A stretch of 64,000 nt of DNA from Dioszegia crocea. Taxonomy: Eukaryota > Basidiomycota > Tremellomycetes > Tremellales > Bulleribasidiaceae. The notes under the pieces were generated by a model, which worked only from the letters and a program-made list of their open reading frames with translations, had not been told where the DNA came from and did no database searches. Both the position numbers and the translations under genes were made by a program. Position 1 is the stretch's first letter, and each line of letters starts with the position of its first letter. Where the stretch lies: NCBI GenBank assembly GCA_001600615.1, contig BCKK01000004.1, positions 1,871,893 through 1,935,892 of the forward strand, written 5' to 3'. Below are positions 56,654 to 62,921 of this stretch, piece after piece.

Positions 56654-58035
56654 ATGCCCATCGCAACACACTCCACCGAGTCCAAGACCACCGCCTACCC
56701 CGCAGGCTACGCCGCTCCCCGTGAGTCCAGCCATACCAACCTGGACCCTACCTCCACCGCCAACTTAAGCTGACAACAAAGCTGAGCGTAAGAGCGTCTA
56801 CAAGATCGCCCAGATTGGAGCCGACGGTATCGGACCTGAAGTCATCAACGCCGGTGTCAAAGTCGTCAACGCCGTCGCTAAGAAGCTCGGCACGTTCAGT
56901 GTAGACTTCACCGAGCTTGACTGGAGTTCAGACAGGTACAAGCGTACAGGCAGCTATGTACCCGAGGACTACATCGAGGTACTCAAGCAGCACGATGCGA
57001 TCTTGTGAGTCTACCATCTTTGCAGTGGGCCCTTGGCTGACCGGTAGCTTTGGCGCTGTAGGAGCTCCGGACGTACCTGATCATATCTCGCTCTGGGGTC
57101 TCAGGTTGGCTATTTGCCAGCCGTACATGTATGCCAATGTCCGGTGAGTCCTTTGTCCTCTACTACGTTGTCCTAGCTGACTCTTAAGACCCACCAAGAT
57201 CCTTCCTGGAACCGAGTCCCCACTCCGCAATTGCAAGCCTGGAGATTTGGACTGGTGTATCGTCCGAGAGAACTCAGAGGGAGAGTATGCTGGTCATGGT
57301 GGTAGATCTCACAGGGGGTTGGAGCATGAGATCGGGACTGGTACGTCGGTTTCCTCCACACTCGAAGAATGGTAGCTGATGTCAACAGAGGTCACCATCT
57401 TCACCCGTACTGGCATCCGCCGTATCGCTCGATATGCCTTCCAACTCGCCCAGTCCCGCCCTCGCAGGATGTTGACCTATGTCACCAAGAGTAACGCGAT
57501 GAGGAACGGTATGGTACTTTGGGACGAGGTCGTCAAGGAGGTATCCAAAGAGTTCCCGGACGTCGTAAGTTGCCACACCATTCATGGATTGAGTCTCAAG
57601 CTGACAACACAGACCATGGACTTCATGCTCGTAGACGCAATGACGGTCCGAATGACCCTTCATCCTAAATCCCTCGACACTATCCTCGCCACCAACCTTC
57701 ACGCCGACATCCTCTCTGATCTCGCTGCTGCTTTGGCTGGATCAATCGGTGTTGCCCCTACTGCCAATATCGACCCTTCACGCACCATGCCATCCATGTT
57801 TGAACCCATCCACGGTTCCGCATTCGACATTACCGGCAAAGGCCTCGCCAACCCCGTCGGTACATTCTGGACCGCGAGCGAGATGCTCCACTGGCTTGGA
57901 GAGCACGAGGCGGCGGATCTGGTCATGAAGGCTACGGAGCAGGCTTGTGCGGATGGGATCAAGACGAGGGATCTGGGTGGAGAGGCCGGTACGGAGGAGG
58001 TGACAAGGGCTGTAATTGAGAGGATCATGGCTTGA
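56654..58035 (+). CDS. Tartrate dehydrogenase / D-malate dehydrogenase (decarboxylating)
   Basis: Start MPIATHSTESKTTAYPAGYA. After a short intron, VYKIAQIGADGIGPEVINAG opens the isocitrate/isopropylmalate dehydrogenase fold. Hallmarks follow: FFGAVGAPDVPDHISLWGLR, NVRPTKILPGTESPL, WCIVRENSEGEYAGHGG (the substrate-binding ENSEGEY of the tartrate/malate branch) and YVTKSNAMRNGMVLWDEV (catalytic Lys). The metal- and NAD-binding stretch is NLHADILSDLAAALAGSIG, then FEPIHGSAFDITGKGLANPV. It converts D-malate or tartrate with NAD+ to pyruvate- or oxaloglycolate-type products. Six or so exons, about 360 residues, normal for the family. Its neighbour encodes a glycerate-kinase-like enzyme; since some tartrate dehydrogenases yield glycerate, a shared tartrate-glycerate route is an attractive inference. 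Confidence 0.92.
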
Positions 58036-58336: not shown

Positions 58337-61110
58337 ATGGCTGGATCAGTACGGAAGCCAGCTCTCTGGATATCAGGATGGTTTGCCCTATCCACCGTGA
58401 TCGTCCTGTGGGGTGAGTCTCCCATCAGCGAAATTCGGTCTCGAGCGATTTTGATCCACTTGCTGATCGAGCTATAGATGCAGGCTACTGCTTCAATAGG
58501 CCTAGGAGTATGCCGGGTGGTGATCTATCTTGGATCTGGGCACCATATAAGTACGTCCTTCAGTTGCTCAAAGAGCTCGAGCTGACTTTCCAGTATGGTC
58601 CCCTACGCCGCTGTTGACTATATTTATGGCCTACCGTCTCTTGCTCGGCAAGACGGCTTCCCTAATGCCCAAGGTATGTCAACCTCGATACTGTTCCAGT
58701 AGTATCGTATACTGACCCCCTAGCTCTCATGAATGTATTCGAAGCTATCCTCAACGTCGAATACCTATACCTCCGACACACCTCATCTCGGACATCCAAG
58801 CTCCAGCCAGGCCAGAAAGAGCACGCCTACCACGGTCACGCGCCACTCGTAGGCTTCGCAGCCACAGTAATGACTTGCGCAAAGACGAGTCTATACTTCT
58901 GGCAAGGTAAGTTGGCCTCAGTCTCCTTTGGTTCCTGCGCTAATCCCAAAGATTACTTTTGCGGATGGTGCTCTACCGGCCACAATTCCCGCTGGCTATT
59001 CTGGTCTTCCTTCGTCGCTCCCAATGTGTAAGTTCTGCTAGCTCACCTTGCTGATGTCAGGACTTGGATCGTAGTTCCTGGCCTAGTCTCTATAGCCTTA
59101 GGTCGCTTCATGACCCAAGCCCTAAACCGAGAATACGCCTCTCAGGTCGCCTTTGAGGAATACTCCCAGAGTCCTACCGTCATCATAACGGAGAAGTCCT
59201 CTTCCGCTTCTGACGAAGGTCCCGCTCGACGCACTCGACCTCGAGCGGTCAAAGGCGCGCTATCGACCCATTCACGCACTCCATCCAGTCTCGCCCTCTC
59301 CTCTTCTGATCCCTCATCGTCATTCCCCACTCCCAGCCCAGGCGCAACCCTCCCAATCAGCTTCACACCTATCGGTCGGACCTGCATGGTTGTCGGTCAC
59401 AATCGACTTGCAGCAAGCCGGGTATTGGCTCTGCTGGAAGCTGAGGCGGATGTGATTCTGGCGTCAGAGGAGGATCAGCTCAATGAGGAGTTACGATATC
59501 GGATCAATAACGGCCAAATCGACTTTATCCCCCTTGACTCCTCTACCGAGAGCAGTAAGACATGGTCCAACCTTCTCTCATCCCATCGCGTAGCTCTCAT
59601 CTGCGTTACCGACACTCTTATCGCTTCATCCCGCCGGTCTACACGTTCTTCCGAATTCATCGCGATCGCCGCATCATCCCTTAATATCCCCATCAATATA
59701 TCTGATCAACCTCGTCTATCCACCTTCAACTTCCCCTCTGTCCACCGCTTCTCTGGTATTGCCGGACCAAGCAGTTTACAGGTCGCAGTCTCCACCAATG
59801 GCAATGGGTGTCGCCTCAACTCTCGTATCAAACGAGACATCGTTTCTCGTCTACCGACAGATGTTGGGTTGGCCGTTGACAATGTCGGCCGGTTACGCAC
59901 CAGCGCCCGAGCTCGATCATCCTCCCGGTCCCGCTCGACAGGCCGGATATCAGAGGATGATCCTGATACCCCTCTCAATGCTGCTGTACCTCAGCTTGAT
60001 ACACCCTCTTTGCTCAAACAGGCAGCATTCGAGCTGCGCCTGGTGGATACAGAGAATGAGGATGAGCAGCTGCGGCGGATGAGATGGGTGCATCAGATGA
60101 GCGAGTACTACTCGTACGAGGCATTAGCGAGGATGGGAGAGAAGGATATACAGCGGGCGTTGGTGACGTGGGAGAAGAAGGAGACAGGGGGATTACCACA
60201 TCATGAGGGTGTGTGTGTGCCACCGGTGGAGAATGGTCGAATATACCTCGTCGGATCAGGTCCAGGTCATCCCGGACTACTCACAGTTGCCGCTTCCACC
60301 ATCCTCCGCACAGCAAACGTCATCCTCTCTGACAAACTCGTCCCTGCCGAAATCCTCGCTCTCATCCCCAAAACTACCGAACTACACATTGCCAAAAAGT
60401 TCCCGGGTAACAACGAAGGGGCTCAAAACGAGATGATGGAGCTAGCGCTGGAAGCTGCGAGGCGAGGCGAGGTGGTGGTGCGCCTGAAGCAAGGGGATCC
60501 GTTCGTCTATGGAAGAGGAGGAGAGGAGGTGCTGTACTTCCGGCAAAACGGATTTGAGTCCACCCTCATCCCCGGTGTTTCGTCAGCGCTGGCGGGACCT
60601 CTGATGATGGGCGTACCGGTGACTCAGCGGGGAGTGGCGGAGAGTATGATTCTGTGTACCGGGGTCGGGCGGGCGGGGAAGAGTGTTCAATTACCTGGAT
60701 ATGTCCGGAGTAGGAGTCTGGCGCTGTTGATGGGTGTTGCGCGGATCAATCAGATTGTCGACGTCTTGACGAATCCAGCAACGGCAGGACGGGACGGTGC
60801 GGTCTATCCACGACATCTACCTATTGCAGTGATTGAGCGTGCGTCGAGTCCGGATCAGAGGGCCATTTTGTCTACTTTGGAGAATATCGAGGAGGCGCTC
60901 AAGAGTATGGAGGAGAGACCGCCGGGTATGATGTTGATTGGATGGGCGGTTTTGGCGTTGGAGGGTGAGGGTAGGGTGGATGTGTTGGATAGGGAAGAGA
61001 GTGGAGATGGGGAGATAGCAGAGGGTTGGATGAAGGGTCCAAGGTGGAAAGTCCGCGAAGGGTTGGGAAATGGATGGACGGGGTTAGACGGGTTGGGTAT
61101 GGCAATCTAG
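58337..61110 (+). CDS. MET1: EXPERA-like membrane domain fused to siroheme synthase (Met1-type)
   Basis: Six exons (58337-58412, 58478-58550, 58594-58673, 58724-58906, 58952-59027, 59061-61110) join in phase to 845 residues. Residues 1-180 form a four-span EXPERA/EBP-like domain: VLWDAGYCFNRPRSMPGGDL, MVPYAAVDYIYGLPSLARQD, HAPLVGFAATVMTCAKTSLY and APNVTWIVVPGLVSIALGRF. The frame then continues through a Ser/Thr-rich linker into a Met8-like Rossmann segment (GRTCMVVGHNRLAASRVLAL). The uroporphyrinogen-III methyltransferase domain follows, with YLVGSGPGHPGLLT, LSDKLVPAEI, VRLKQGDPFVYGRGGEE, IPGVSSALAGPLMMGVPVTQ and LLMGVARI. The second half makes precorrin-2/siroheme for sulfite reductase. Outside this region the two domains are separate proteins. 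An internal Met at 59110 would give a 666-residue Met1 alone, but the upstream exons would then have no stop. An upstream in-frame Met at 58268 is possible. Confidence 0.82.
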
Positions 61111-61408: not shown

Positions 61409-62921
61409 TTAGACGAGTGGTACACCAGCTGTCACTGCAGGACAGCCGAATGTCTGAGAGAAGATAGGGTTGATCTTAGCCGCAATACCGACAAGGGCGC
61501 CAACGGTAGAGGTGACAACTGTGCTGTCAGCGCTACTCCACTCTGGCAAAAAGGTGTCACACACTCCCTTGGACAGTGGAAGGAATCGCAGCAAGAGCCG
61601 CCTGCTGAATGATACAAGCAAAGTCATTCGGGCTCGAGGGGTTGAATTTGCCGTTAACGATACCGGTGGTAGTGTTGAGGCCCAAGAAGTTCTGGTAACC
61701 CGCGTTGAAACCGAAGAGTACGGGGCTGGCGAGGAATTGGGCGTTAATCTCGTTGTTTACGTCGATAAGGGTGTAAGGGGTCTGACGATTGAACCAGTTG
61801 TCAGGGATACGTTCGGGAACGTGACGGTAGGTTCCATCTCCGTTATCGACCGCACCGAAGAAGGTTGAAATGGTGGCGAAGTCGGGACCGCCCCCGTTGG
61901 TGGGCATGAGCTCGTATAGGAAGGATGAGGCACCGTAGAGTAAGAGTGCTGTAGGGAGGAAGACAAACTGACCATTGTCGGCTGACAGTCAGCATTGAGA
62001 CTTGAGGATGACTTACCCTTTGACTGAGCATATCGTTGAGCCCTGTACTTGGTCATGCAGGCCCGGTCAAAGACCTTGTTGCAAGTAGTAGTCATGAAGC
62101 CGAAGAGTGTTCCGTTGAATGAATAGTTGTCCCCGTTGTTGAGGAAGTAGTCGCTCCGAGTGAGAGAAGCGTCGGCTTCGAACTTGTTGTGAGTTGCAAG
62201 ACCTCCTTCGCGACTACCACCGAGGGCAGAGGTTTGGGAGGTAGCATCTCCGCCAAGACTGAGTTTGGTAGTGATCAAATCACCATCAAGACCCACGCCC
62301 TATCTATGTCAGCTAGGGTAAGGGGTGGATAGGGAAATAGCTTACAAGAGTGGCGAGGACGACAGCGAGGTCATAGCCGACATTATAGACATTCTGTTGG
62401 GCCTGGACAAGCTCGTTGAAGGTAACGATACCGTCTCGAGACTGGACGTCAGCGACTAGACAATGTTTATCAGGTCCATAGAACTCACAAGGAAGCCGTG
62501 ATTGGCAGCGGCATTAAGACTGCCCAGTCAGCATATGATCAAGGCACAGTGACACAAGATGGACATATGGACTGACCCAGGGCAAGGTCCACGGAAGGCA
62601 CCGGCGGGTGGGTCTTGGTACTGGTGGTCGGTATCGTTCAGAGCAGGAACGAGCCGGTTTCCGATCTGAGAGCCAGGAAGACCGTCGTTCTTGGCTCCGG
62701 TGTAAGGATACTTGGAAGCTGTCCGTCAGTCTCTTGTACCAAAGACGAGTAGGACTATAGAACTCACAGATCTCAACTGCAGATCGCTTAGTCTGGCGTC
62801 TGTACGCCTCGGTGAATTCGCGCTTTTCGACATCCGTCATGCGGTCGTAGTTGGCCATGAAAGGGAAGGCGTTGGTAGCCGCCAGGAGCGAGAAGACGGA
62901 GATGAGGTTTGTGAGTAGCAT
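61409..62921 (-). CDS. Secreted heme-thiolate peroxidase (chloroperoxidase/unspecific peroxygenase family)
   Basis: Start MLLTNLISVFSLLAATNAFP is a signal peptide. After YDRMTDVEKREFTEAYRRQ, exons give DPPAGAFRGPCPGLNAAANH, where the PCP Cys is the axial heme thiolate ligand. SRDGIVTFNELVQAQQNVYN and GLATHNKFEADASLTRSDYF follow; the latter holds the acid of the distal pocket (E-A-D-A-S, in place of the EHDxS of peroxygenases). Next are NNGDNYSFNGTLFGFM, RHVPERIPDNWFNR, VLFGFNAGYQNFLGLNTTTG and a C-terminal tail ending QTFGCPAVTAGVPLV. Five or six introns, about 400 residues. It likely uses H2O2 to halogenate or oxygenate organic substrates outside the cell. Potential N-glycosylation sites occur (NYSF, NGT, NTT). 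Function is by family. Confidence 0.88.

Follow-up and report, generated by a model that had tools for sequence, protein, structure and literature searches.

Is the first enzyme of siroheme synthesis held at a membrane in some fungi? Siroheme is a cofactor for sulfur assimilation, and its synthesis is usually drawn as a soluble pathway. The question is raised by a 64,000-nucleotide stretch of Dioszegia crocea DNA (contig BCKK01000004.1; "the window" below), in which six exons at positions 58337–61110 (+) join an EXPERA-like membrane domain to the methyltransferase Met1. The exons join in phase into 845 codons with no stop (92.1 kDa), which bears out the original prediction, made from the sequence letters, of one continuous frame across five phase-consistent introns and a protein of about 92 kDa. 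We consider it likely that one gene encodes a membrane-tethered Met1, and that a stand-alone four-span protein of the EBP/EXPERA fold was fused in frame to the N-terminus of the enzyme in an ancestor of Tremellales and Trichosporonales. Judged from sequence, the fusion is real and conserved. It is already deposited in databases, where the fused records are named for the enzyme half only or as hypothetical; we found no description of it in the open-licence PMC literature.

The fusion is conserved in relatives

A homologue search scored 7993 candidates and gave 834 proteins at E<=0.001, and the statements that follow concern the best 120 of these 834. In 20 of the 120, Met1 is preceded by a membrane-domain match of 150 or more alignment columns (P0001, P0003–P0012, P0014, P0024, P0033, P0034, P0036, P0037, P0054, P0066 and P0075). 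Eighteen of these fused proteins come from Dioszegia hungarica, Naematelia, Saitozyma (a record marked low quality), five Kwoniella, six Cryptococcus, two Cutaneotrichosporon, Cryptotrichosporon and Vanrija, and a taxonomy look-up places all eight genera in Tremellales or Trichosporonales. The original prediction had left room for close relatives that encode the two domains in separate genes, with no fused protein among them; fused relatives were found. Conservation is uneven: the Vanrija row is only 29.5% identical and its membrane domain is degraded, and in K. bestiolae (P0017) the membrane domain is partial (120 columns). P0005 resembles Cryptococcus proteins (90% identity with C. deuterogattii P0012 over 720 columns) and reads through the membrane domain unbroken, which points to a spliced transcript, with intron loss as the alternative.

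Among the same rows, no significant match to the membrane domain was found in seven Naganishia (Filobasidiales), in Phaffia and Mrakia (Cystofilobasidiales), or in rows P0104–P0119, of which 15 of 16 are from Agaricomycetes. The last group is 46–49% identical over about 70% of the D. crocea fused protein. Many other rows are uninformative on the fusion, because proteins read from raw contigs cover the last exon only.

Origin of the fusion

To follow the history of the fusion we used a tree of the Met1 parts only (38 rows, one of them untrimmed, with the unfused group included and a midpoint root; Kockovaella, Auriscalpium and Thelephora, whose rows are long or odd, were left out together with P0010 and P0066). 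With 20 rows labelled fused and 12 unfused, a single label change suffices (support 100/99; 200/200 bootstrap trees), and none of 500 label shuffles gave as low a number. The tree thus allows a single origin. The D. crocea protein groups with that of D. hungarica, to which it is 86% identical over the Met1 part. The fused clade also takes in six unlabelled rows: K. newhampshirensis, Tremella mesenterica, C. depauperatus and three Kwoniella that are annotated as two genes. In both this and an earlier tree the three split Kwoniella models sit at three places among fused species. The earlier tree (41 rows, ten not trimmed at the motif, midpoint root, P0010 and P0066 again left out) compared fused with split labels only; it required three changes, a number equalled or bettered in 500/500 shuffles, and is uninformative on origin.

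Gene model and the case for two genes

All five introns are GT...AG, and all features below lie on the + strand. Exon 1 (58337–58412) carries the start codon and the first span (aa 1–25), and intron 1 (58413–58477, 65 nt) splits the codon of D26; an alternative acceptor at 58483 would keep the frame at the cost of two residues, conserved D26 among them. Exon 2 (58478–58550) encodes the loop motif D26...YC..RPRS and is followed by intron 2 (58551–58593, 43 nt). The second helix, with D58 and YG, lies in exon 3 (58594–58673); after intron 3 (58674–58723, 50 nt), exon 4 (58724–58906) continues with membrane helices that contain E83 and K130. Intron 4 (58907–58951, 45 nt) ends in CCCAAAG. The loop FCGWC..GHN and the beginning of the last span (N162) come from exon 5 (58952–59027), and, beyond intron 5 (59028–59060), exon 6 (59061–61110) supplies the remainder of span 4, the linker, the entire Met1 part and the stop codon.

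Intron 5, at only 33 nt, is the weak point of this model. Use of the AG at 59074 instead (a 47-nt intron) loses the frame and meets a stop 26 codons later, which would truncate the membrane protein. The 33-nt intron is supported because it yields a conserved fourth span, as in relatives; the resulting APNVTWIVVP is identical in D. hungarica. Little help comes from the Ser/Thr-rich linker (59122–59379, aa 184–269, 86 codons). It is stop-free in 559 of 5000 shuffles too, weak evidence for one frame, and its codon bias slightly prefers the coding frame, with one reverse-strand frame scoring equally. The real evidence for one gene is conservation in relatives.

Several observations weigh against a single gene. 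K. dejecticola, Kwoniella sp. CBS 9459 and K. shandongensis carry two-gene annotations (membrane/Met1 models P0121/P0072, P0122/P0069 and P0123/P0067). Other records are ambiguous: the T. mesenterica record is partial, the N-termini of Kockovaella and K. newhampshirensis are odd, the C. deuterogattii model is without the stretch of exons 2–3, several Kwoniella models have small inserts at intron 5, and the Met1 of C. depauperatus (P0077) has a hydrophobic N-terminus that is not recognisably EXPERA. Together with the shortness of intron 5, the split annotations could mean that an EXPERA-like gene ends here, by read-through of intron 5 or by use of the 59074 acceptor, and that Met1 starts within exon 6. 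An ATG at 59386, at the first Rossmann strand, would suit such a start, as would the Met found just after span 4 in several Kwoniella.

We regard two genes as very improbable. The split models omit span 4 from the membrane protein: in K. dejecticola and Kwoniella sp. CBS 9459 it is in neither model, and Met1 starts at a Met right after the span. P0121 continues into non-homologous residues, while P0122 and P0123 stop where span 4 should come. The two K. shandongensis records carry consecutive accession numbers, and the Met1 model (P0067) begins within span 4. Given also that the split models are nested among fused species, the simplest reading of these sequences is that the annotations were split at the short intron. 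Furthermore, 11 of 20 fused proteins (D. crocea included) have no Met in the stretch from span 4 to the Rossmann strand, and therefore a complete soluble Met1 cannot start at a linker AUG there. The in-frame ATGs nearest the D. crocea linker, at 59110 (span 4) and 59386, both lie outside it; D. hungarica has Mets at both corresponding places, plus one in the linker.

The single fused protein that we favour has an unusually long linker in D. crocea, 88 residues versus 48–73 in 19 other fused proteins (by a count that leaves out P0066 and also P0010, a record marked LOW QUALITY PROTEIN). In a full-length structure model of D. hungarica P0001 (35-row alignment; mean pLDDT 71.5, pTM 0.37) the last span extends as a helix to residue 205 and residues 206–226 are of low confidence; for this reason, and given the pTM, the relative placement of the membrane and enzyme halves is not predicted.

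As to neighbours, a gene of the isocitrate/isopropylmalate dehydrogenase family lies upstream (57376–58035, +) and stops some 300 bases short of the start codon. Downstream are convergent open frames (61557–62299, –) with a Peroxidase_2 domain, the better one scoring 44.3 bits (cut-off 26.9).

The membrane domain

The membrane domain (aa 1–183; 58337–59121, +, introns included) had been called EXPERA-like, and this label holds at the level of the fold, not by the Pfam cut-off. The D. crocea fused protein matches EBP (PF05241) with 16.4 bits at residues 121–173, below the cut-off of 25.7; none of nine relatives reaches it, five giving a sub-cut-off match and four none. PDB sequence searches with the domain returned EBP only weakly (E 0.61 and 0.3), amid chance matches to antibodies and other proteins. 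The fold was tested on a stand-alone relative of the domain, for which structure comparison found a four-span EBP-like fold. No TMEM97 structure was among the fold matches of this relative, which is uninformative either way. N162 and W165 line up with EBP N193 and W196 in the last span, in a non-significant HMMER alignment, and D26 and D58 correspond to EBP acidic residues 80 and 108 by order and rough spacing only (32 vs 28 residues apart). Across 21 fused rows D26 is kept in 18, D58 in 18, N162 in 19 and W165 in 20, most missing positions being gaps in partial models; all four are kept in the 4/4 aligned stand-alone relatives.

An EBP Pfam search of the D. crocea genome did not report the fusion gene, because of its short exons and sub-cut-off score. 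Another EBP-family gene, over the cut-off, lies on contig C1 (2160286–2160688, –) of the same genome. An exon-by-exon search, which can miss genes, found no separate copy of the membrane domain.

Since the EBP-like acidic and Asn/Trp positions persist in most models, the domain may still bind a ligand or act as an enzyme in its own right. It could even have an independent job, sterol isomerase-like or in lipid or sterol binding, joined to Met1 without serving as a tether. The fold match to EBP and the four residues kept in most fused rows and all four stand-alone relatives favour this, yet we think it rather unlikely: the genome search for a second copy came up empty, the pair is still joined across two orders, and the annotated models of C. 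depauperatus and Vanrija lose several motif residues while keeping hydrophobic stretches before Met1, as an anchor predicts. No match emerged when the C. depauperatus N-terminus was compared by profile with the stand-alone domain (a profile of four sequences only); the anchor there looks replaced, or else too diverged to be recognised. Regulation of Met1 through sensing or binding of a tetrapyrrole or sterol by the domain is improbable; what speaks for it is the fold and the kept polar residues. Membrane tethering is the likeliest consequence of the fusion.

The enzyme half

The original prediction named the enzyme half a siroheme synthase with complete Met8-like and uroporphyrinogen-III methyltransferase domains. 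The methyltransferase (60235–60951, +, aa 555–793) is well supported: it scores 202.2 bits against TIGR01469 (uroporphyrinogen-III C-methyltransferase; curated cut-off 185) and 143.4 bits against PF00590 (TP_methylase; cut-off 27.8), and it aligns with solved enzyme structures. Ahead of it, the Met8-like module (59374–60183, +) has NAD_binding_7 (aa 268–389), Sirohm_synth_M (401–425) and Sirohm_synth_C (488–537), and its three Pfam pieces (PF13241, PF14824 and PF14823) are all above cut-off. "Complete" holds for these pieces, less so for the motifs. The module retains an Asp that aligns with D104 of CysG, and its dinucleotide-binding Gly motif is altered to GHNRLA; in PMC7018833, D104 is described as required for dehydrogenase and chelatase alike in CysG.

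A separate MET8 gene with the Gly motif GGGVVA lies in the same genome (contig C1, L008:1468–2319, +). Because the CysG equivalog NF007922 (238.5 bits, cut-off 400) and TIGR01470 for the CysG N-terminus (36.8 bits, cut-off 62.3) are both missed and MET8 is separate, "siroheme synthase" was too strong. Given the altered Gly motif and the separate MET8, the fusion's most likely contribution to siroheme synthesis is its methylation steps. An exon-by-exon TP_methylase search of the genome found one gene only. Such a search can miss genes, since diphthine synthase, a TP_methylase family member in eukaryotes, was likewise not found.

A possible relay with Met8 at the membrane

Since the C-terminus of the EBP fold faces the cytosol, the fusion would place the methyltransferase at the cytosolic side of a membrane (probably the endoplasmic reticulum, ER), near its cytosolic substrate uroporphyrinogen III. 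Beyond this tethering the mechanism is inferred, and it involves Met8, the enzyme that takes over Met1's product, precorrin-2. The last residues of the D. crocea Met8, 33 without charge and then RRR, are predicted to form a tail anchor. Among 120 listed Met8 relatives, 105 have at least 260 aa; a charge-free run of at least 18 lies in the last 50 residues of 99 of these 105, and such a run occurs elsewhere too in 33. We relied on charge-free runs because hydropathy alone failed to separate the tail from the rest: 105 of the 120 score 1.5 or more within their final 70 residues, and peaks elsewhere are often equally high. The annotated D. hungarica Met8 has a weaker tail and no basic end. Met8 tails are also present in fungi with unfused Met1 (Naganishia) and in Rhizoctonia, so the anchor is independent of the fusion; it motivates, and does not prove, a membrane-bound relay.

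With less confidence, we propose that the tether would put the first enzyme of siroheme synthesis on a surface that the second may already occupy. Siroheme might then be made on the membrane, with Met1 and tail-anchored Met8 relaying precorrin-2 directly and the membrane domain perhaps adding sterol or lipid control over sulfur assimilation; we offer this tentatively, as less probable than not. That two fungal orders (and, within them, Cryptococcus) have kept the fusion suggests selection for holding the first enzyme at a membrane there, and the fusion with the predicted Met8 anchor makes a testable case for such a relay. It also gives a concrete partner to a fungal branch of the EXPERA fold with no function known to us.

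Comparison with known systems

The public records of D. hungarica, Kwoniella, Cryptococcus and Cutaneotrichosporon share the fused architecture of the D. crocea protein. With EBP and TMEM97 of the EXPERA superfamily the membrane half has in common the four-span fold (as found for the stand-alone relative). The N..W of its last span aligns with EBP, though not significantly, and each of its first two helices may offer a counterpart to an acidic residue of EBP. It differs in its sub-cut-off Pfam score and in what follows: its C-terminus is an enzyme, not the short ER-retention tail described in PMC4263179. Like CysG, the enzyme half has a dehydrogenase-like module before the methyltransferase and keeps the Asp matching D104; unlike CysG, it falls below the family cut-off, has a changed Gly motif and a separate MET8, and has gained a membrane domain. 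Yeast has separate Met1p and Met8p, according to PMC7018833. The Met1 proteins of S. cerevisiae and the Agaricomycetes have the same Pfam pieces. S. cerevisiae Met1 is a uroporphyrinogen-III C-methyltransferase with a Met8-like N-terminal module. The Agaricomycete Met1 proteins differ in that no membrane domain was found, and the rows inspected begin about 25–45 residues before the Rossmann strand.
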